DNA of 33,413 bases from Candidatus Aveggerthella excrementigallinarum (GCA_018715725.1 DVLD01000056.1:1-33413), one strand, 5' to 3'. Counted from the stretch's first letter, positions 15,461 through 27,431 are shown. Notes: generated by a model from the letters alone, not told the origin. Program-made: numbers and translations.

Positions 15461-17604
<2,144 letters not shown>

Positions 17605-17608
<4 letters not shown>

Positions 17609-17847
17609 GCGGCAGCCTCCTCCACGGCGATGCCGGCGGCGATGCCGCTGCCGAGCGCGAACCGCGCGCCGCGCACGCGCACGATGACCGTGCCCTTTCC
17701 CTTGCCGTTGAGCACCTCGATGAGCGCGCCGTGCGTCATGCCGAGCGCCTCAAGGCGCTTTTCCACTGCCGTCTCCAGCTGGATGCCGCGCACGCGGTAC
17801 CGTCCGCCCACGCGCGCTTTGTCAAGCGTCGTCTGTCCTGCCGTCAT
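17605..17847 (-). CDS. feoA: FeoA-family protein
   Basis: An 80-residue cytosolic SH3-like protein needed for FeoB-dependent iron uptake. The sequence shows GGRYRVRGIQLETAVEKRLEALGMTHGALIEVLN, the family's central pattern, then GTVIVRVRGARFALGSGIAAGI. ATG 17847 has GGGAG upstream; the track start at 17922 adds unrelated residues. It is translationally coupled to feoB, and no feoC was found. The -10 box at 17957-17952 and a TTAC-N6-GTAA dyad upstream suggest iron- or redox-dependent control, although no canonical Fur or DtxR box is readable. Confidence 0.93.
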
Positions 17848-17951
17848 GCTTCTCCCGAACGTTTCGCCCGCAGCAGCGCCCGTTGAACGCACAGGCGCTG
17901 TGCACGGCTTTTCTGCCCGCACGCGGGCACGCTTCCTTATTTCGGCTGAAC

Positions 17952-18061: not shown

Positions 18062-19693
18062 TTACCGACGCTGCTCGTCGACGGCGCCCTCGACCATGTC
18101 CAGCAGTTCCTGGCGCGTGTGCACGCCAAGCTTCGCGTACACGTTCTTGATATGGGTCTTCGCGGTGTTGACGGAGATGCCCAACTCCTCGTGGACGTAC
18201 TCGATCGAACGGCCTTTCGCCAGCAGGAACAGGACATCCCTCTCGCGCGTGGAGAGTCCGCCGTCATCGGCGATGAGGTTGCACGCGCGCGTCCAGGCGC
18301 CCTGCGGCCGCGATGCGGCGTCGCCCTCGTCAGACGCGCCGGCACCTTCGACCATGCTATCCGGGAAGATGCTGCCGAACGCGTCCGCCTCGGCTCGCTC
18401 GAGACCGTTCGCCTGGCGCAGCACGCGGCCGATCGCACGGTCGTTGAACACGAGCATGACCACAATGAGCAGGACGAACACCATCACGATCGAGACCGCG
18501 ACGATGACCGTTGGGTTGTCGCCCGTCTGCTCGAGCAGCATCGAGCCCAGCACCCACCCCAACGTCGTGCCGGCAGCGGAGGCACCGCGGCCCCAGCCGA
18601 ACACGCGCACAGGCGACAAGCTGGTCATGTAGGACACGTGCGCGCACAAGCACCAGATGACCATGACGAACAGCGCGTACGCCACGCCGATGACCTGTCC
18701 TTCGAACGCGCCCGTGCTCGCCCCGCCCGTGGCGGACGAGACGACCGGCGTGACCAACACGCCGCCCGACACCAGAATCGTCGCCGGATAGTACAGCTTC
18801 GAAACGTCAAAATCGCGCATGAGCATGCCGGCGACCAGGAAGAGGATAGCGGCGATGCACGCCGTCACCGCCACGATGATCACGCCTTTCGCGCTCAGGA
18901 CGTCAACGCCGCCCGACAACGTCGAGTAACCGCGCGTCACTCCCACGACCACGGCGAACACCGCGACCGCCAGCACGAACCGCGCGAAGAACCCGTGCGG
19001 CAGCGACCCGGTCGGACGGCGGTCGGACCGCGCAGCGTCCGTGCGCGCAAGCGTGGCGACGGAGCACAGCGCCGCCATCGTCGGCAAGAACGCCGCAAAG
19101 ACAATGCCCGCAAGCTCGGGCAAGCCCACGGCAACGAAGTACAGCATGCCGGCGAACACGAACGACGCCGCAGTGTACATGAGCGCCTGGCGCGCCGGCA
19201 CCGTGCCGTACACCATGCCAAGGCGCAGCGCGATCCATGCAGTCCCGACGCCCGTCAGGGCCGAGAAGACCGCGAAGGCGGGACCCTCCCCGCCGAAGAC
19301 CACGCCCACCGTGCTCACGGTGGCGAGCACTCCCGCAGCGAACACGATGAAGGAACGGCGCAGAATGGTCTCGACCTTGGAAGCGAACAACGACGAGACG
19401 ATGAACACGAGCGCAAGGGCTGTCGTCGAGAGCAAGTACATGTCGAACACGCTGTACGCAGCCTGGTCCTGCATCCAATCGGGCACAAGAACCTCGCTGT
19501 CGTAGCACAGCCAAATCCACGCGTAGTAGCAACCAAAGCCAAGGAACTTCAGGCTCGGCCACTGCTCGTCAATGTCCGCGAACAGCGTCGACATCGAAAG
19601 CCACGGGCGCTTCCCCTCCGCTCCTACAGCCGTGACCGCCTTCTCCTCGGACGATCGAGAAAGCGTGCTTGTTTCGTTTCGTCTTGCGTCCAT
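18062..19693 (-). CDS. Membrane-bound LuxR-family regulator with multi-helix N-terminal domain
   Basis: 543 residues. After a short polar N-terminus, residues from about 45 to 430 are almost wholly hydrophobic, with about 12 predicted helices. The tail is a LuxR helix-turn-helix (LSTRERDVLFLLAKGRSIEYVHEELGIS, then VNTAKTHIKNVYAKLGVHTRQELLDM). The arrangement, a transporter-like sensor fused to a LuxR output, is characteristic of Eggerthellaceae, where these genes often lie next to molybdoenzyme clusters. ATG 19693 has GGAGG upstream, and a -10 box lies at 19725-19720; the track start at 19720 would overlap the box. It is the last gene on the left of the oxidoreductase cluster, in its own transcription unit and on the same strand. 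The sensed ligand is unknown; the natural guess is the substrate of the neighbouring enzyme. Confidence 0.88.
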   Translation of the reverse strand: MDARRNETSTLSRSSEEKAVTAVGAEGKRPWLSMSTLFADIDEQWPSLKFLGFGCYYAWIWLCYDSEVLVPDWMQDQAAYSVFDMYLLSTTALALVFIVSSLFASKVETILRRSFIVFAAGVLATVSTVGVVFGGEGPAFAVFSALTGVGTAWIALRLGMVYGTVPARQALMYTAASFVFAGMLYFVAVGLPELAGIVFAAFLPTMAALCSVATLARTDAARSDRRPTGSLPHGFFARFVLAVAVFAVVVGVTRGYSTLSGGVDVLSAKGVIIVAVTACIAAILFLVAGMLMRDFDVSKLYYPATILVSGGVLVTPVVSSATGGASTGAFEGQVIGVAYALFVMVIWCLCAHVSYMTSLSPVRVFGWGRGASAAGTTLGWVLGSMLLEQTGDNPTVIVAVSIVMVFVLLIVVMLVFNDRAIGRVLRQANGLERAEADAFGSIFPDSMVEGAGASDEGDAASRPQGAWTRACNLIADDGGLSTRERDVLFLLAKGRSIEYVHEELGISVNTAKTHIKNVYAKLGVHTRQELLDMVEGAVDEQRR

Positions 19694-19719
19694 GGCCCCT
19701 CCTCGGAAGGGCGCGCACA

Positions 19720-19725
19720 TCTATA
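19720..19725 (-). promoter_or_regulatory. -10 box (GCTATAGAT) of the luxR gene
   Basis: The minus strand reads CCGCGCTATAGATGTG, 26 bases upstream of the start codon, giving a short leader. Confidence 0.5.
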
Positions 19726-19761
19726 GCGCGGCCTTCCCCACTTCGCAGTGTCCCCCTTCTG

Positions 19762-20757
19762 CTACTTTACCTGTTTTTCACTGTGCTCCTGAGAACGAAA
19801 TCCACCGTTCAACAATGGAAAACTGATAGCGTGCGCTGGGCACTTGTCCGCGCACGCGCGGCATTTCGTGCATTCAGAGAGCGGCGCGGAGACCGTCCCG
19901 TCGTGCAGATCGATGCCCTCTTCGCACACCTCCGCACACTTGTGGCACGCCTCGCCGTTCTCACGCAGGCACGTCGTCGTGTCGACGCGCGGACGGAACG
20001 TGCGGTTTAGGCGCGCGATCAGCGAGAACAGCGCGCCGAGCGGGCAAAACCGGTGGCACCACTTGCGCAGCACGACGATCTCCAACAGCAGCAACGCCGG
20101 AAACACGATCAAGGATAGCGTCGCTTCGTTGAACTGGAACAGCCTCCAGAGCACAATAATCGTGCCGAACGTGAGGCCAACCGGGCAGATTAGGCAGAAG
20201 ACCGGGAAGCCGAACAGCGCGGTCGAAAGAATCGTGCCGCCCAGGACCCAGTTGCGGGAATCATGAATCCCGCCGCGTAGCTTGCGCGGGATTCCCAGCG
20301 CGCCCTGTTCGATCATCTCACCTGGATGCAAGCGGGCTTCAGCCTCCTCGGCTGCCACCTCTTCAAGCTCCTTGAGCGCCTTCTCGCGCTCTTCGCCCTC
20401 GACGCGCGCCGCGCGCTTACCCAGCTTGCGCTCCCGCTCCGCTCGCTTCTCCTGCGGAGACTTCAAGCCCAGGACGCGACGAAGCAGCGGGATGGGGCAG
20501 CCCCACGCGCAGAACGCGCGTCCGAACACGATGGTGAGGACAACGACGATGGCAGCGCCCAGCAGCATGGGCGGGACGATCGTGCGCGATGCGATGGCCG
20601 CCTCGACGGCACCGAGCGGGCAGAGCGCGGCGATGTCGGCGATGCCCCACGAGGACGGGGTGCCGAAGCCGGTGTGGATGGCCAGCCCCAGGCACACGAG
20701 TGCGATGACCGCGACCGCGCTCAACGTGCGAAGCAGCGTAGACGACGGCTTTTTCAT
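19762..20757 (-). CDS. NapH-like membrane ferredoxin
   Basis: 331 residues. Membrane helices lie at about 10-28, 60-80, 165-190 and 205-235. The NapH-type cysteine motifs are FCAWGCPIPLL, FCLICPVG and HRFCPLGAL, and two [4Fe-4S] sites follow near the C-terminus (CHKCAEVC and CTKCRACADKCP). Between helices 2 and 3 is a charged segment rich in Glu, Arg and Lys (about 120-150), probably a coiled coil. NapH proteins take electrons from menaquinol and hand them to NapG-type partners at the outer face. It starts one base after the stop of the NapG-like gene. No nap nitrate reductase is nearby, so the pair probably serves the adjacent molybdoenzyme or its maturation. Confidence 0.85.
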   Translation of the reverse strand: MKKPSSTLLRTLSAVAVIALVCLGLAIHTGFGTPSSWGIADIAALCPLGAVEAAIASRTIVPPMLLGAAIVVVLTIVFGRAFCAWGCPIPLLRRVLGLKSPQEKRAERERKLGKRAARVEGEEREKALKELEEVAAEEAEARLHPGEMIEQGALGIPRKLRGGIHDSRNWVLGGTILSTALFGFPVFCLICPVGLTFGTIIVLWRLFQFNEATLSLIVFPALLLLEIVVLRKWCHRFCPLGALFSLIARLNRTFRPRVDTTTCLRENGEACHKCAEVCEEGIDLHDGTVSAPLSECTKCRACADKCPAHAISFPLLNGGFRSQEHSEKQVK

Positions 20758-20758
20758 G

Positions 20759-21385
20759 TCACATCAACTCGCTTTCGGTCGAGACCGTCGTGCGCGAAAG
20801 GCGGTCGTACACCGCGGGAGACACGACCTCGATGCCGCGGTGCATGCCGCCGACGAACGAGCGGTACACGAGCGCCGGGCATTCGTCGACGCACAGGCCG
20901 CACCCATTGCACGCGTCGGCATTGACCTGCGGATGGCCCGCCCCGTCAAGCGAGATGGCCTCGTACGGGCAGACCTCGGCACACCGGTCGCACCCGCCGT
21001 AGTACGCGACGCACCGATCTTCGATGACGACCGCGACGCCGATCTTCTCGCGCGTCTCGTCGAACGGGCGAATGGCGCCCGTCATGCAGACTTCCGCGCA
21101 CTTGTCGCAGAAATCGCAGTAGCCTTTGTGAAAGTCAAGAATGGGCGTGCGCGCGTTCACCAGCCCGTCTTCGACATGTCCGACGGCGATCACGCCGGTC
21201 GGGCACACGGAGCGGCACCGATCGCAGCGCACGCAAGTGCTTAGCAGGTGCGCCTCGTCCTGAGCGCCCGGCGGGCGCAGCAACTCGTCGGAGGAACCGA
21301 GAACGCGGACTCCCCCGCCGATTCCAGCGCACGCGACAACGCTCGCGCACGCGCCAATGAACGTTCTGCGCGTCAAGTCAGCCAT
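20759..21385 (-). CDS. NapG-like Tat-exported ferredoxin (four [4Fe-4S] sites)
   Basis: 208 residues, with a Tat signal at the N-terminus (MADLTRRTFIGACASVVACAG). Four cysteine groups follow: CVRCDRCRSVCP, CDFCDKCAEVC, CDRCAEVCP with an upstream Cys (CVAYYGGC), and CNGCGLCVDECP. This is the layout of NapG/MauM-type proteins that carry electrons outside the membrane. The start at 21385 has GGAGAGG upstream. It follows the TorD gene by 85 bases that contain a GGCGAGCGCTCGCC palindrome. The protein likely forms an electron route with the NapH-like protein, in addition to the DmsBC route, or feeds a common acceptor. Confidence 0.87.
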   Translation of the reverse strand: MADLTRRTFIGACASVVACAGIGGGVRVLGSSDELLRPPGAQDEAHLLSTCVRCDRCRSVCPTGVIAVGHVEDGLVNARTPILDFHKGYCDFCDKCAEVCMTGAIRPFDETREKIGVAVVIEDRCVAYYGGCDRCAEVCPYEAISLDGAGHPQVNADACNGCGLCVDECPALVYRSFVGGMHRGIEVVSPAVYDRLSRTTVSTESELM

Positions 21386-21470
21386 GCCTCTCCTCTCTCT
21401 CCGCGATCGGGACGTTACCCGCCAAGCGCCCGCGCTGCATCGGCGAGCGCTCGCCTGCTCGCGCTTACGC

Positions 21471-22145
21471 CTACTCCCGCGCGTACGCCGCCAGGTCGTC
21501 CACGACCTCGCGGTCGAGCGCCAGGAAGCCGCGCGTCAAGCTCGCCACGCCGCGGTAGAAGTCGGTGCGGGCATGCTCGTCGATCGCCTGCGTGAACGTG
21601 GGAATCCAGTTCTCCAGATGCTCCGCAAGAAAGCGGTCCTGCACGCCGACCAGGCGAGCGAACTCTGCGTCGTCGCCTTCGTCGATCGCCTCGACCGCAC
21701 GGTCGATCAAGCGCGCCATGAATTGCATCTCGAACGACACGTGGTCCTCGGGCGTGGTGTTGTCGGCGGGAAGGTCGATCCCCTCGGCGCGGTAGAACGC
21801 GACCGCACCGTCGCGCGCCTCCTGCATGAGCAGGTGCTGCTCGCTCGTGAAGACCGACTCGTACGGCGGCGCCATGACCGTGTCGTACATGCCCGCGCTC
21901 AGGAACGTGTGGGCGTAGTCGACCGCCAGCTCCTGTCGCGTACCTGCGTCACGGTGCCGCAGGTATTCCTTGATGGTTGCGTACCCCTGCGCGATCTCGG
22001 AGTCGTCCTGCGGGAACTCTTGCGTCGCCAGCGTTTCAATCTGCTCGACGGTCAATTCCGTGAAATAGACGCTCGCCAGGAAGCGGTAGAACGTGGCGCG
22101 TGCTTCGCTCGATTCGCGCACGTCCTGTTTCATTGCTTCGTCCAT
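21471..22145 (-). CDS. TorD/DmsD-like molybdoenzyme chaperone
   Basis: 224 residues, all helical in appearance. The motif LAVDYAHTFLSAG...APPYESVF matches the TorD-family signature (YxxLF, then PYES/V). The C-terminal EHLENWIPTF is also typical (E-x2-H-x4-P). TorD proteins bind the Tat signal of a specific molybdoenzyme and hold it until the cofactor is inserted. ATG 22145 has GGAGACC upstream; the track start at 22361 overlaps the hairpin region and the end of the dmsC-like gene. The partner is almost certainly the DmsA-like protein encoded in the same cluster. Confidence 0.88.
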   Translation of the reverse strand: MDEAMKQDVRESSEARATFYRFLASVYFTELTVEQIETLATQEFPQDDSEIAQGYATIKEYLRHRDAGTRQELAVDYAHTFLSAGMYDTVMAPPYESVFTSEQHLLMQEARDGAVAFYRAEGIDLPADNTTPEDHVSFEMQFMARLIDRAVEAIDEGDDAEFARLVGVQDRFLAEHLENWIPTFTQAIDEHARTDFYRGVASLTRGFLALDREVVDDLAAYARE

Positions 22146-22184
22146 GTGATGGTCTCCTTGCTTCGTCAGGTTTGGAACGGTCGA

Positions 22185-22330
22185 GCCGGCCTTGGGAGGG
22201 ATCAGAGGGATGGGGTACACAAGGCCGGCCGATCGACCGGCGAAGCGCCGTGCGAGAGAGGGGAAGCTGCATGGCGCTTCGCCGAGCGGTCGTCCGAAGA
22301 GCTGCCGGCCCGCATTCGCAGGCCGGCAGC
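22185..22330 (-). repeat. Three tandem perfect hairpins between dmsC-like and torD-like genes
   Basis: C (22301-22330): GCTGCCGGCC/GGCCGGCAGC, 10 bp, loop 10, starting 20 bases after the dmsC-like stop. B (22239-22283): GGCGAAGCGCC/GGCGCTTCGCC, 11 bp, loop 23, extended by GACC/GGTC beyond a bulge. A (22185-22229): GCCGGCCTTG/CAAGGCCGGC, 10 bp, loop 25. No U-run follows. They may act as an RNA-stability barrier, an attenuator or a processing site that sets the ratio of structural subunits to chaperone. Confidence 0.75.
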
Positions 22331-22350
22331 GGAACATGCCTTGGGGCTCC

Positions 22351-23163
22351 TTAGAGGGCAACCCCGAACAGGGACATCAGGGCCGAGCCTACAAGCCACA
22401 TGACGCAGCGCAGGCCAATCGACCCGATGAGGGCGCCCACCACGGCGATGGCGCCGTAGGTCAGGCCAGAAGCGGGCTTCTTGCTCGCCAGGTAGCCGAA
22501 CACAATCGGCGCGACGCCGCCACAGACGACGACCGCCAGCCAGAAGATAGCAGCCTGGTCGCCGAAGGCGACGTTGCCGGCAACGCCGTAGACGACGCCG
22601 AGCACCAGGGCGAGCACGCCACCCGCGGTGGCGAGCAGGCCAGCGAAGGAGATCGCCTCATCGCTCTCCTTCAGAGCAGCGCACAGCACCAGGTAGAGCG
22701 CCGTGCCGCTGGCAGCGGCAGTGCCCAGGTACGCGAGCGGAAGCGTGACGGTGTCCCACATGGCGTGGGAGGACATCATGTAGGACGCGCCGCAGGCGAA
22801 GGTCAGCGCGATGGCGGCGATGATGCCGAGGACCGCGAAGACCTTGCGGGCTCCAGCAGACGCCTCGCGCTTCACCAGGATCGCGTAAACGATCGCGACG
22901 ACGGCGAGGATGCCCAGGAGCAGCGCCTCCAGGAAGATGCCCGCGGTGGGATGGCCGAGGGCTGCCAGCATGCGCTCAGGATGCGAAAGGTGCGTCACAG
23001 AGCAGATGCCGCCGACTGCCAGCAGGACCACCGCCAGGATAGCGGCAGGGAACGCCGTCTTTTTCGTCGTGCCCTTGAGCTCATCGATGGCGGCGCTAGC
23101 AAACAGCCACGCACCGGCACCGGAGAGCACCGTGAACAGAACGAGTGACCATTGGATCTCCAT
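22351..23163 (-). CDS. dmsC: DmsC-like membrane anchor
   Basis: 270 residues with eight predicted membrane helices and the opening MEIQWSLVLFTVLSGAGAWL characteristic of DmsC. DmsC-type subunits oxidise menaquinol in the membrane and pass two electrons to the iron-sulfur subunit. The segment HLSHPERMLAALGHPTAGIFLEALLLG is the conserved second-helix region, HPxR included. The start overlaps the end of the dmsB gene, with stop TAA followed directly by ATG; GGAG lies nine bases upstream. As in E. coli, order dmsA-dmsB-dmsC is kept. Confidence 0.9.
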   Translation of the reverse strand: MEIQWSLVLFTVLSGAGAWLFASAAIDELKGTTKKTAFPAAILAVVLLAVGGICSVTHLSHPERMLAALGHPTAGIFLEALLLGILAVVAIVYAILVKREASAGARKVFAVLGIIAAIALTFACGASYMMSSHAMWDTVTLPLAYLGTAAASGTALYLVLCAALKESDEAISFAGLLATAGGVLALVLGVVYGVAGNVAFGDQAAIFWLAVVVCGGVAPIVFGYLASKKPASGLTYGAIAVVGALIGSIGLRCVMWLVGSALMSLFGVAL

Positions 23164-23748
23164 TTAGATGCGCTCCTTCCATTCGCCATGCTTCGGGGAC
23201 CAGATGTAATGGGTCGCCGGATGGTTCCCCACGTCCTCGAGCGTGTGGATCGCGTCAGCGTCGTAGCGCGCGAGCTCCTTGGACACGTCGGAATCCGGGT
23301 CGTCCAAGTCGCCGTAGAAGCGCGCGCCAGCGGCGCAGCTCTTCACGCACGCGGGCAGCTCGCCCTGCGCGGTCAGGTGGCCGCACAGCGTGCACTTCTC
23401 GACCGTCTTGGTCTCGGCGTTCCAATTGCGGACGCCGTACGGGCACGCCATCATGCAGTACTTGCAGCCGATGCACTTCTCGCGGTCGACGAGCACGATG
23501 TTGGTCTCGGGGTCGCGGTAGCTCGCGCCGGTCGGGCACACGTGGACGCACGGGGCGTCCTCGCACTGCTGGCACATGGACGGCACCTTGTAGCGCGTGA
23601 TGTCCGGGTAGTCGCCGATCGGTCCGACCTCGACGACCTTGTTCCAGTACTCACCCAGCGCGATGTCGTTCTCCATCTTGCAGGCGACCTCGCAGCCGTA
23701 GCAGCCAGTGCAGCGGTCGAGGTTCACGACGATGCAATTACGCGCCAT
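23164..23748 (-). CDS. dmsB: DmsB-like four-cluster ferredoxin subunit
   Basis: 194 residues with four [4Fe-4S] motifs: CTGCYGCEVACK, CQQCEDAPCVHVCP, CIGCKYCMMACPYG and CTLCGHLTAQGELPACVKSC. That arrangement identifies the electron-transfer subunit of DMSO reductase-family enzymes. It has no signal peptide, so it would be exported by riding on the Tat-directed catalytic subunit. The start lies 10 bases inside the 3' end of the dmsA-like gene, so the two are translationally coupled. Confidence 0.93.
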   Translation of the reverse strand: MARNCIVVNLDRCTGCYGCEVACKMENDIALGEYWNKVVEVGPIGDYPDITRYKVPSMCQQCEDAPCVHVCPTGASYRDPETNIVLVDREKCIGCKYCMMACPYGVRNWNAETKTVEKCTLCGHLTAQGELPACVKSCAAGARFYGDLDDPDSDVSKELARYDADAIHTLEDVGNHPATHYIWSPKHGEWKERI

Positions 23749-26476
23749 AATCGAACACCTCCTCGGTAGGATCGGAGGGCGTCGGCAGCCACGGAGTGAA
23801 GTCCTCGGGCTTCATCCAGGTACCTTCCGGCGCGCCTTCGGGGCACGGGTAGACCTTGACCGTGAAGCCGCGGAGCGTGTAGGTGCCGTACTCCGGGTTG
23901 TACGGGGCGTCGGTCTTGCTCAGGACGTTGTAGTTCATGGCCGTGTAGGCGAGCTTCGGGTCGTCGCTGTTCAGGAACTCAGGATTCCAGAAACGCTCCT
24001 GGTACAGGACGCCCTCCGGGATGGCAGTCGTGACCTTCGCCAGGCCGCGCGTCTTGGCGCGGCGGGACTCGATCCACGTCCACGTGCCGTCCTCGATGCC
24101 GTACTTCTCGGCATCCGCGGGGTTGATCCACAGCTCGGGCACGGGATAGATCTCGCGCAGCCACGGGACGTTGCGCAGCGTGCCATGGTGGTACATGGGC
24201 AGGCGGCCGTTCGTGATGACGAGCGGGAAGTCGGGGTCGTAGCCCTCGGCGCCCTCGATCGGGGACTCCGCCGGCTCCACGTAGTAGCAGAGCGGCTCGT
24301 AGTCGGCGCTGGCGGGCGGAACCTCGAAGTGCTCCTCTTCGGCGCACTTCGCCCACGGATAGCCCGTGCGGCCCAGGATGGTGTTGGACTCGGCGTAGAT
24401 CTCGAGCTTCTTAGACGGCGTGCCGAAGCCCTTCGGCTTGCCGGTCTTCTCGTCGATCTTCTTGTAGACCTCGTAGGTGCGGTACTCGTCGACGGAGCAC
24501 CACTCCATGACGCCCTTCTCGCAGAGCTCGTCCCACGTGATGCCGGACGTGCCCATGTGCTGCTTCTGCTTCTCGTACTCGTTCTTATAGAGCACGTGTC
24601 CGAAGGTCGCTTCCGGGTCGAAGGCGCGGGCGGCGGCTTCGTTGCCCAGCTCGGCGCACTTCTGGACGATGTTCGTCCAGATGATGCCCTCTTCCACCGT
24701 CTCGAACAGGTGGGTGACCGCCTGGCGGACGACGACGGTGTTGAGCTGCGGGATGGGCAGGTTCGTCTCCAGCCACTCCGTGCACGGCAGCGCGTAGTCG
24801 GCGTACATGCGGGTGAAGGCCGTCGGGTACATGTAGATGTGGACGATGCAGTCGACGTTCGGCGTGACCTCGTCAAGCTGCAGGGCGTTGCCAAGCACTG
24901 CGTGCTTGTTGCCGGAACGGTCGAACCACATGTGAATCTGGTACGGGTCGCCGTCCTTCATCATGGTCATGACATCGGGGATGAAGCACATATCCCAGTC
25001 CATGAGGCCCTTGTGCTCGATGTAGCCCGCACGCCTCATGACCTTTTCCTTAGACAGCAGGCGCGGGGTATTGCCCAGCTGGTCCTTGACGGGGCAGCCC
25101 TTGAAGTTCTGCAGCATGGTACCGGGTTTCTCGACGTTGCCCATGAGGAATTCCAGGGCAAGGGCAGCCAGCGCGCACTGCTGGGACTGCGGGTACTGGT
25201 CGATCGGCACGCCCTGCATGATGCCGGACTGGCCCTCGGGGTCGGTGTAGATCTCGAGCGCCTTCACGATCTGGTCGGCGTCCAACCAGCAGACCTCGGC
25301 GGCCTTCTCGACGGTCCACTCCTCGCAGGACTGCTTGAGCAGCTCACCGCCGGTGGAGCACTGCATGCCGTTGACCTCGTAGGTGCCGAACAGCGCCGGG
25401 TCGACGCCTTCGTTCATGGGATAGTCCACAACGACGGGCTGGTTGGTCTTGGAGTCCCACACCACGTAGTCCTTGTCGGTACCTTCAAGTCCAGCCTCCG
25501 TCGCCTTGAGCGTCAGGCGCGTCTCCGGGTTGATCAGGTACGGCATGTTCGTCCAGGTCTTGCAGAACTCGGCGTCATATCGCTCGTTCTCGATGATCCA
25601 GTGCTCCCATGCCAGAAGCAGCGCGGCGTCGGTGCCCGGGCGGATGGGCAGCCACACGTCGGCCTTGGACGCGTCCAAGGTCATGCGCGGGTCGATGACC
25701 ACCGTCTTGAGGCCCTGCTCGCGAGCACGCAGCTCCGCCAGCGCGCGACCGCCGGTCGCGACGGAGGAGTTGGACGGGTCGGTGCCCCACAGCACCAGGC
25801 TCGTCACCGGCGTGTCGTCGAAGTAGTAGTCCCAACCGTTGGAGTCCGCGAAGGACAGGTTGTTCGGCTTGCCGGCGCCGTAGACCAGCTGCGAGGCGGC
25901 CATGCGGGGCAGATAGCACTGGGCGCAACCGGGCTCCCACACGTTCGGCGTGTTGATGGACTCGCCGAACCACTTCACGTTAGAGAAGTGTGGGTTGCCG
26001 CCGCCGCCCGTGGACACCGTGATGGCCTCGGAACCGTACTTGTCGGAAATCTCGTTGATCTTGGTCGCGATATCCGTGATGGCCTCGTCCCAGGAGATGC
26101 GCTCCCAGTCGTTGCCACCGCGCTCGCCCACGCGACGCAAGGGATACTGCAGGCGGTTCGGGTTGTAGAGCGCCTGGATGCCGGCAAGACCCTTGGCGCA
26201 CACGCCGCCCATGCTCATGGGACTCTCCGGATTGCCCTCGATCTTGATGACGCGACCGTTCTGGACGTGCGCCAGGACAGCGCATGCCGCGATGCACGCA
26301 CGGCACGAGGTCTTGACGATCTTGACGTCGTTGCTCTCGGCAGCGCGGGCGGGATCAGCCTTCACAAAGCAGTCCGTCGCCGCGATGCCGGAAGCGGCAA
26401 CCGCACCACACAACGCCGACGCCTTCACGAAGCTACGGCGCGACATGGTCGCGGATGCCTGGCTCGCTGTTGCCAT
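23738..26476 (-). CDS. dmsA: Tat-exported molybdopterin oxidoreductase catalytic subunit, DmsA-like, substrate unknown
   Basis: 912 residues after choosing ATG 26476 (AAAGGAGGG upstream); the track start adds 17. A Tat signal is clear (MSRRSFVKASALCGAVAAS). Four cysteines (Cys58, 61, 65 and 93, in SCRACIAAC and GGVCAKG) form the N-terminal [4Fe-4S] site. Molybdopterin-binding landmarks include VLWGTDPSNSS and VIDPRMTLDASKADVWLPIRPGTDAAL; the C-terminal domain starts at LVITNGRLPMYHHGT. In the segment where E. coli DmsA has its ligand serine, this protein reads VWEPGCAQCYLPRMAAS; by spacing against formate dehydrogenase, Cys187 (or Cys184) would be the ligand. Cys-type enzymes act on substrates such as nitrate, sulfur compounds, acetylene or catechols, so the dms symbol names a relative, not a substrate. 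It is coupled to dmsB. Confidence 0.92.
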   Translation of the reverse strand: MATASQASATMSRRSFVKASALCGAVAASGIAATDCFVKADPARAAESNDVKIVKTSCRACIAACAVLAHVQNGRVIKIEGNPESPMSMGGVCAKGLAGIQALYNPNRLQYPLRRVGERGGNDWERISWDEAITDIATKINEISDKYGSEAITVSTGGGGNPHFSNVKWFGESINTPNVWEPGCAQCYLPRMAASQLVYGAGKPNNLSFADSNGWDYYFDDTPVTSLVLWGTDPSNSSVATGGRALAELRAREQGLKTVVIDPRMTLDASKADVWLPIRPGTDAALLLAWEHWIIENERYDAEFCKTWTNMPYLINPETRLTLKATEAGLEGTDKDYVVWDSKTNQPVVVDYPMNEGVDPALFGTYEVNGMQCSTGGELLKQSCEEWTVEKAAEVCWLDADQIVKALEIYTDPEGQSGIMQGVPIDQYPQSQQCALAALALEFLMGNVEKPGTMLQNFKGCPVKDQLGNTPRLLSKEKVMRRAGYIEHKGLMDWDMCFIPDVMTMMKDGDPYQIHMWFDRSGNKHAVLGNALQLDEVTPNVDCIVHIYMYPTAFTRMYADYALPCTEWLETNLPIPQLNTVVVRQAVTHLFETVEEGIIWTNIVQKCAELGNEAAARAFDPEATFGHVLYKNEYEKQKQHMGTSGITWDELCEKGVMEWCSVDEYRTYEVYKKIDEKTGKPKGFGTPSKKLEIYAESNTILGRTGYPWAKCAEEEHFEVPPASADYEPLCYYVEPAESPIEGAEGYDPDFPLVITNGRLPMYHHGTLRNVPWLREIYPVPELWINPADAEKYGIEDGTWTWIESRRAKTRGLAKVTTAIPEGVLYQERFWNPEFLNSDDPKLAYTAMNYNVLSKTDAPYNPEYGTYTLRGFTVKVYPCPEGAPEGTWMKPEDFTPWLPTPSDPTEEVFDYGA

Positions 26477-26501
26477 ACTCCCTCCTTTTTCTCTCTTCCT
26501 T

Positions 26502-26543
26502 GGACGTTCGTCCACGTGAATGTGCACAAGGCGGCATGCCGCC
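26502..26543 (-). repeat. Two short palindromes ahead of the dmsA-like gene
   Basis: GGCGGCATGCCGCC (26530-26543) is a perfect 14-bp palindrome, and GGACG-TT-CGTCC (26502-26513) a 5-bp dyad. They lie in the 122-base gap between the unknown gene ending at 26599 and dmsA. They could be operator sites or RNA hairpins near the ribosome-binding site. Confidence 0.4.
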
Positions 26544-26598
26544 TAGTGACCGAAGTAAAACGACGCGCGACCGTGCGCGGCCGCGCCGCCCAGCGGGC

Positions 26599-27222
26599 TT
26601 ACGCGCCCGCCCTCCGCAGGAAGCGCAGTCCTGCATCCGTGGTCTTCCAGCAGCCCTCCCACTCAAGGCCGCCTGCCGCTTCGAGCTTCGAGACGAAATA
26701 CTCGGGATAGACGCTCTTTCCGTCGGCCTCGACCTTGCCGCCAAGCGCCTCGTTCACGTCGGAGAGCTTTGCGCCCTGTTCACACGCACGCAGCGTCTCC
26801 TTAATGGCGGCCGTGAACTCCGCGGGCTCGGACGCGCACAGCGCGTCAATCATCTTCGCGGGCTCGAGCGACGCGAGCACCGTCTGGCCTGCCGGGGTGG
26901 TCTTGAGCGTCCAGTCCGTCGGCTGATCCTCGGAATCGAGGTTGGATTCATCAGCGGTTTCCGCGGACTCCTCTTCCACTGCGGTACGCTCGATGCCGCC
27001 CGCCTCGACGAGCAGGTTGATGAGCACGTGCGGCGTCTGCAGGCTGGTTTTCATAACCGTCAACGACTCAAGACCGGCTTCGATGTCGCGGTACGGCGCC
27101 TCCTCCAGACACGCGCGCAGACACGCGCACATGGGCAGCGTGTTCGCACGCGTCTTGCGCACGCACGCCATGACTCGCTCCACCGCCTCGGTGGAGCGGT
27201 CGGTCGTTTCGATAGAAGTCAT
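26599..27222 (-). CDS. Protein of unknown function with two similar halves, first gene of the oxidoreductase operon
   Basis: 207 residues, no signal peptide or membrane segment. Two halves resemble each other: TPHVLINLLVEAGGIE...WTLKTTPAGQTVL in the first and YPEYFVSKLEAAGGLE...CWKTTDAGLRFL in the second, each preceded by an Arg/Ala/Cys-containing helix (ACLRACLEE; ETLRACEQG). The repeated pattern of helix, strand-like LEAAGGLE and TTxAG looks like a duplicated winged-helix domain, which would suggest DNA or protein binding, but I do not recognise the family. An acidic linker (EEESAETADESNLDSEDQ) separates the halves. The start has G7 as its Shine-Dalgarno, next to A8. Its position before dmsA suggests a regulatory or assembly role. 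Confidence 0.8.
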   Translation of the reverse strand: MTSIETTDRSTEAVERVMACVRKTRANTLPMCACLRACLEEAPYRDIEAGLESLTVMKTSLQTPHVLINLLVEAGGIERTAVEEESAETADESNLDSEDQPTDWTLKTTPAGQTVLASLEPAKMIDALCASEPAEFTAAIKETLRACEQGAKLSDVNEALGGKVEADGKSVYPEYFVSKLEAAGGLEWEGCWKTTDAGLRFLRRAGA

Positions 27223-27242: not shown

Positions 27243-27332
27243 CAGCGCTCCGAGCAACCTGACGCCCATTTCCTAAACGCGTTGCTTGGATACGCTGACA
27301 GTAGTCAAGATGAGGGGCAGCTAAGAAGCCCC

Positions 27333-27393
27333 GTAGTTCGTGAAACCGGAACTCTTTTTTGGTGAGGGCGTGTTTTCGAACCTCACGAATAAC
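27333..27393. promoter_or_regulatory. Inverted pair of TTCGTGA sites upstream of the oxidoreductase operon
   Basis: GTAGTTCGTGA (27333-27343) and, in inverse orientation, GTTATTCGTGA (27393-27383) agree at 9 of 11 positions. They lie 110-170 bases upstream of the first gene of the cluster, beyond a TTGACT at 27308-27303. They are candidate binding sites for a dimeric regulator such as the LuxR protein of this cluster; this is inference. Confidence 0.4.
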
Positions 27394-27404
27394 GGGTGAT
27401 AAAC

Positions 27405-27431
27405 ATAAAAGAAGGCCTGCGAACAGGCCTT
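27405..27431 (-). terminator. Rho-independent terminator after the small coiled-coil gene
   Basis: AAGGCCTG and CAGGCCTT form an 8-bp stem around 4 bases, just past the stop of the gene at 27432. The minus strand then reads CTTTTATG; the plus strand also has TTTT after the stem, so it may work both ways. It separates the PHP/NUDIX genes from the oxidoreductase cluster. Confidence 0.8.

Follow-up and report, generated by a model that had tools for sequence, protein, structure and literature searches.

A conserved molybdoenzyme module of the Eggerthellaceae with a membrane LuxR regulator, a predicted operator and a recurrent tandem winged-helix protein

The stretch of DNA described here, referred to throughout as the window, encompasses 33,413 nucleotides from Candidatus Aveggerthella excrementigallinarum (GCA_018715725.1, DVLD01000056.1:1-33413) and harbors a gene module for a molybdoenzyme carrying a signal for twin-arginine translocation (Tat). 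Eight open reading frames (ORFs), running from 27222 to 18062 on the minus strand, contain the expected domains and form one co-directional module. Transcription runs from the gene for a 207-aa protein through those for the catalytic molybdoenzyme, a ferredoxin with four clusters, an anchor of the DmsC type, a chaperone resembling TorD, and the NapG-like and NapH-like proteins to that for a membrane LuxR regulator (Table 1). The original prediction, made from the sequence alone, had recognized these eight neighboring genes and placed the host in the Eggerthellaceae, the family to which Eggerthella lenta DSM 2243 also belongs, and both points stand. Its claim that every step is covered goes too far, as molybdenum cofactor (Moco) synthesis and the Tat translocase lie outside the module; TatC is encoded elsewhere in the same genome. 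The catalytic subunit contains Molybdopterin, Molydop_binding and Fe4S4 domains together with the Tat motif SRRSF, and the NapG-like protein carries the motif TRRTF. The catalytic gene probably starts at ATG 26476, just 5' of which lies AGGAGG, rather than at GTG 26527, and torD probably starts at 22145, a position picked by its Shine-Dalgarno sequence, the longest ORF starting at 22361.

About a dozen further genera of the Eggerthellaceae and related families contain orthologs of the catalytic subunit at 72-77% identity, and a clear gap separates these from paralogs, at 55% and below. The orthologous loci retain the near-complete eight-gene order while their flanking genes vary, and because this order is conserved in about a dozen genera the module is more than a chance assemblage. 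It is present in the type strain E. lenta DSM 2243 at 3.20-3.21 Mb, the ortholog there lying at 3,210,162-3,212,858. Among about 290 other actinobacterial genomes, no relative outside the Coriobacteriales matched at E 1e-100, and plasmids yielded distant relatives only (<30% identity). As a clue to substrate, the flanking genes offered nothing conserved beyond the module, in a comparison made noisy by antisense ORFs, this DNA being high in GC.

Table 1. Genes and predicted regulatory features of the module (window coordinates)
Feature	Position	Strand	Basis or remark
Tandem winged-helix protein ("DUF207"), operon gene 1, acidic, 207 aa	26599..27222	-	No Pfam family
Catalytic bis-MGD (bis-molybdopterin guanine dinucleotide) subunit, Tat signal	23738..26476	-	Start picked by Shine-Dalgarno
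Four-cluster [4Fe-4S] electron-transfer subunit, DmsB/NrfC/TtrB-like	23164..23748	-	Domain matches
DmsC-like membrane anchor, ~8 hydrophobic segments	22351..23163	-	PF04976, E 7.7e-11
TorD-like Tat/Moco chaperone	21471..22145	-	PF02613, E 1.3e-29; NCBIfam TorD below cut-off
NapG-like ferredoxin, Tat motif TRRTF, four Cys clusters	20759..21385	-	Domain and motif scan
NapH-like membrane ferredoxin, possible menaquinol dehydrogenase	19762..20757	-	Domain and motif scan
Transmembrane (TM) LuxR regulator, modeled 12-helix sensor of major facilitator superfamily (MFS) fold plus C-terminal LuxR helix-turn-helix (HTH)	18062..19720	-	PF00196, E 2.4e-13; structure model
Predicted distal operator TCACCCGTTATTCGTGA	27383..27399	-	Found once in the genome of the window
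Possible promoter-proximal half-site TCACGAACTACGG (compare E. lenta TCACGAACAACGGACGT)	27331..27343	-	Sequence comparison
Terminator-like hairpin 3' of the upstream gene, setting that gene apart from the operon	27412..27431	-	Precedes the distal operator

The catalytic subunit binds its metals through recognizable ligands, namely Cys75/78/82/110 for the [4Fe-4S] cluster and Cys204, within EPGCAQCYLPR, for the bis-MGD metal (numbering from GTG 26527). Cys204 aligns with the ligand Cys of PsrA, acetylene hydratase (Ahy), Dadh and Dodh and not with the Ser of the dimethyl sulfoxide (DMSO) and trimethylamine N-oxide (TMAO) reductases, and the motif EPGC[AS]QC[YF]LPR is nearly fixed across the clade of the window enzyme. 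In trees that took in Dadh, Hcdh, Dodh, the Escherichia coli enzymes and PDB references, with PsrA and Ahy represented by partial sequences pieced together from printed alignments, the window enzyme falls in a clade of its own (support 100/100), apart from Dadh/Hcdh/Cadh. Its sister is the Dadh/Hcdh clade (94/92), and the larger group that holds both includes Ahy (92/88). Approximately unbiased (AU) tests rejected the joining of the window clade with DmsA/TorA (p 9e-5), marginally rejected its joining with PsrA (p 0.047) and did not reject its joining with Ahy (p 0.075). The best PDB match is the polysulfide/thiosulfate reductase 2vpw and the best NCBIfam score is to PhsA, yet no equivalog cut-off is reached (PhsA 238/694, DmsA 218/778 and NapA 120/904 bits), so that neither a PhsA/PsrA nor a periplasmic nitrate reductase identity is obtained by this route; the Cys ligand and the AU result both argue against a DMSO/TMAO reductase. 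The original prediction had left the substrate unassigned and named a position inside a clade of known substrate as the result that would count against it. Given the separate clade, the AU tests and the unreached cut-offs, the enzyme lies outside any such clade.

The regulator encoded by the last gene carries a LuxR HTH at residues 489-543 (PF00196, E 2.4e-13). Its structure model, of moderate confidence (predicted local distance difference test, pLDDT, 68.6), comprises 12 long helices followed by the HTH, and every one of the sensor's best structural matches is an MFS transporter (probability 1.00; template-modeling score, normalised to the target, about 0.5-0.67), in keeping with the transporter-like sensing domain originally proposed. 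The modeled helices agree in number with the 10-12 TM helices of a published LuxR family (Dong 2022), of which the regulator is by modeled architecture a member; a crude hydropathy scan merged the helices into 7 segments. Members of this family, DadR, HcdR and CadR, activate the neighboring dehydroxylases upon exposure to substrate (PMC9734109), which bears out the earlier suggestion that such membrane regulators can be substrate-responsive. The three LuxR proteins of E. lenta closest to that of the window are exactly those adjoining its three closest catalytic relatives, which argues that sensor and enzyme diverged together.

Upstream of the operon lies a candidate operator, a feature absent from the original prediction and proposed here. 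Expectation-maximisation over the 330 bases upstream of gene 1 in 11 loci recovered the 17-bp palindrome TCACC-mATwATk-GGTGA across the orthologs, with a total of 215 bits, against 125 +/- 4.6 bits in 20 Markov shuffles. When each locus was left out in turn, two near pairs being left out together, and the whole 17-33 kb locus was scored, the upstream palindrome was the top site in 9 of the 11. The window copy lies 177 bases ahead of gene 1, just past the terminator-like hairpin, and the palindrome occurs once in the 2.03-Mb genome (pattern search, <=1 mismatch); several loci contain a second, weaker site closer to the gene. The palindrome is likely the operator of the cognate LuxR, which would bind it. 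A related dyad, CTCACGCATTTTGCGTGAG, is found about 105 bases before gene 1 of a 45% paralog cluster in E. lenta DSM 2243 (L087, about 1.885 Mb), where it is likely the operator of the paralogous TM-LuxR. As far as we have checked the operator proposal is new; the TM-LuxR family itself was already described (Dong 2022), in a paper whose main text names no operator (PMC9734109).

The 207-aa protein encoded by the first gene has no Pfam or NCBIfam match, and no checked member of its family belongs to a Pfam family. Its two halves are homologous (hhalign 97%, E 3e-11), as the duplicated-domain description of the original prediction implied. An AlphaFold model built from a four-sequence alignment has a pLDDT of 85, and Foldseek returned weak matches to the winged helices of MarR, PadR and Sso10a, none with an E-value <0.001. 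On the basis of this model the protein represents a tandem winged-helix family that is without a Pfam name. All members checked are acidic (isoelectric point, pI, 4.05-4.98). Metal binding was considered and rejected, the Cys residues not being conserved.

The family is multicopy, with 1-11 copies in 15 of the 16 genomes searched. Loci were fetched around these genes, and the counts therefore describe the surroundings of each copy. For the 77 distinct copies, the nearest molybdenum (Mo) enzyme belongs to the window enzyme's clade in 42 cases and to the Dadh/Hcdh type in 29, with no other class represented; around the remaining 6, of which two lie on short contigs, the fetched DNA contains no Mo enzyme. 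A TorD gene is near all 77 copies, on the same strand in 75 and within 300 bases in 45. In E. lenta, which has 17 TorD genes, the six winged-helix copies are near the module ortholog, two paralogs of its clade, dadh, a dadh paralog and hcdh, whereas a Gordonibacter-genus genome, also with 17 TorD genes, returned no copy. The E. lenta copy at dadh occupies 609,811-610,422 and adjoins torD. This distribution agrees with the sister relation of the two clades in the tree. Because 71 of the 77 copies sit by enzymes of these two clades, with TorD near every copy, the protein is probably dedicated to the maturation of these exported enzymes as a partner of TorD; first described as unknown, it is a recurrent partner shared with the catechol dehydroxylase loci, a point that had been overlooked. 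As such a family it is new as far as checked. The genome of the window contains three further copies (contigs C38, C81 and C173), of which that on C38 adjoins a Dadh-like enzyme. Separate clusters of winged-helix and TorD genes, often with NapGH-like genes and with no Mo enzyme within the fetched stretch (L160, L165, L185 and L168), are possibly stand-alone maturation or electron-supply units.

Taken together, the operon appears on balance to encode a substrate-induced, exported, menaquinol-fed molybdoenzyme complex, the chemistry of which, from phylogeny and shared accessory genes, is most likely reductive dehydroxylation, acting on a gut compound that is phenolic or otherwise oxygenated. The substrate would bind the membrane LuxR at its MFS-fold domain, and the HTH of this regulator would then bind the upstream palindrome and switch on the operon, the LuxR gene included. 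TorD, aided by the tandem winged-helix protein, would retain the catalytic subunit while the cofactor is inserted and would gate the Tat export of this subunit jointly with the ferredoxin subunit. Menaquinol would supply electrons, which on the outer side of the membrane would travel by way of the DmsC-like anchor, the NapGH-like pair or both to the four-cluster ferredoxin, and from there via the [4Fe-4S] cluster to the Cys-ligated bis-MGD metal, which would reduce the substrate. The module has the traits of an E. lenta-type dehydroxylase (Tat signal, four-cluster ferredoxin and membrane anchor) and works like the catechol dehydroxylase systems of that organism, outside their characterized clade. 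More tentatively, and with rather less than even confidence, the winged-helix proteins may be a new maturation co-chaperone family restricted to Tat-exported catechol dehydroxylases and their sister clade, the latter being a large conserved class of respiratory dehydroxylases with inducers of their own, MFS-LuxR sensors and dyad operators whose specificity lies in the inner bases.

Several observations weigh against a dehydroxylase assignment and its accompanying scheme. The deep nodes of the tree are moderately supported, the catalytic identity to Dadh is only about 26-33%, and joining the window clade to Dadh/Hcdh alone costs 4.2 log-likelihood units and is neither rejected nor established (AU p 0.11). 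In L020 and L027 another site outscores the palindrome. The ortholog locus L023 is without DmsC and NapGH, and L028, a metagenome-assembled genome (MAG) submitted as Gordonibacter, is without the winged-helix protein, so that not every part of the module is essential. The high conservation across genera might also be easier to explain if the acceptor were a widespread one, inorganic or an S/N-oxide, than if it were a niche phenol. A respiratory reductase of the thiosulfate/polysulfide, nitrate or DMSO/TMAO type, with TM-LuxR induction incidental, would accord with that conservation, with the matches to 2vpw and PhsA, and with the DmsC-type anchor and NapGH-like genes, but the distance from the PhsA, DmsA and NapA cut-offs, a Cys in place of the Ser expected for DMSO/TMAO, and the AU rejection of DmsA/TorA and, marginally, of PsrA make it unlikely. 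Less probable again is a non-reductive enzyme of the Ahy group, be it a hydratase, transhydroxylase or oxidative dehydrogenase. The tree places the catalytic subunit in the larger group that holds Ahy, an enzyme without net redox chemistry, but the same operon holds a full respiratory chain of four-cluster ferredoxin, anchor and NapGH-like pair, and Ahy is not known to require such a chain.

The winged-helix protein could instead act alongside the LuxR in controlling transcription of the operon, as its fold, its weak MarR/PadR matches and its place as first gene would allow. The acidity of every member, the constant nearness of TorD and the absence of the family beside other TorD genes argue otherwise, and we regard a regulatory role as doubtful, the maturation partner remaining the preferred interpretation.

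Some further features of the surroundings may be recorded. FeoA/FeoB genes for ferrous iron uptake lie directly downstream of the module (15461-17922, minus strand) and are absent there in most orthologs. A 205-base gap (22146-22350, minus strand) that varies among orthologs separates the anchor gene from the likely torD start. Between the winged-helix and catalytic genes is a strong terminator-like hairpin with a T-rich tail (26565-26586, minus strand); it is not kept in orthologs, and a conserved attenuator ahead of the catalytic gene was thus rejected. The MAG from which the window derives, of 2.0 Mb and 87% complete, has 22 Molybdopterin-domain matches.

Although the general plan of the module will be familiar to specialists, both the predicted operator and the proposed maturation-partner family can be tested directly. 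The module is conserved in the genetically manipulable E. lenta DSM 2243, which opens its substrate, its sensor and its partner protein to experiment. The predicted operator would allow many orphan TM-LuxR/enzyme pairs to be matched and reporters to be constructed. The tandem winged-helix family would provide a marker, recognizable in sequence, of a step in the maturation of enzymes that dehydroxylate dopamine and phenols. These enzymes are difficult to produce in other hosts, for which co-expression of the winged-helix protein and TorD offers a simple option.

Among the closest known systems are the dopamine and hydrocaffeic acid dehydroxylases of E. lenta, Dadh and Hcdh, with their relatives (PMC7028382); they share with the window module a Tat-exported bis-MGD subunit, a four-cluster ferredoxin, a membrane anchor, a TM-LuxR, nearby TorD and winged-helix genes, and a Cys ligand followed by xxPR. 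The DSM 2243 genome contains the published dadh primer site, and residue 506 of its Dadh is Ser, as in the variant of this strain that is described as non-metabolising. The window enzyme differs in its fully supported separate clade at 26-33% identity, its [4Fe-4S] loop, its length (929 aa as opposed to 1017-1205 aa), its signature EPGC[AS]QC[YF]LPR and its organization as one operon with the winged-helix gene first and LuxR last. DadR, HcdR and CadR (PMC9734109) resemble the window LuxR in domain architecture and in their position beside a Mo enzyme, identity to DadR being about 27%. Dodh, Gp Hcdh and Eadh of Gordonibacter (PMC11585353, PMC12771579) belong to the same broad bis-MGD group and have the Cys ligand, but these cytoplasmic catechol dehydroxylases are of a two-subunit soluble type without a Tat signal, and the winged-helix partner is absent from the one Gordonibacter-genus genome searched. 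PsrA/PhsA (2vpw) is the best single sequence match and shares the Cys ligand in CxxPR and the A-B-C subunit plan, whereas the window anchor is of the DmsC and not the NrfD/PsrC family, the equivalog score is far under its cut-off and the grouping is marginally rejected. Acetylene hydratase (2e7z) shares the larger group and the Cys ligand. Finally, as in the NapGH quinol dehydrogenase, a Tat-signal, four-cluster NapG-like gene adjoins a gene for a membrane NapH-like protein with a ferredoxin tail; the window proteins nevertheless score well short of the equivalog cut-offs for NapG and NapH (67/269 and 87/234 bits), and the module is without NapA, NapB and NapC.

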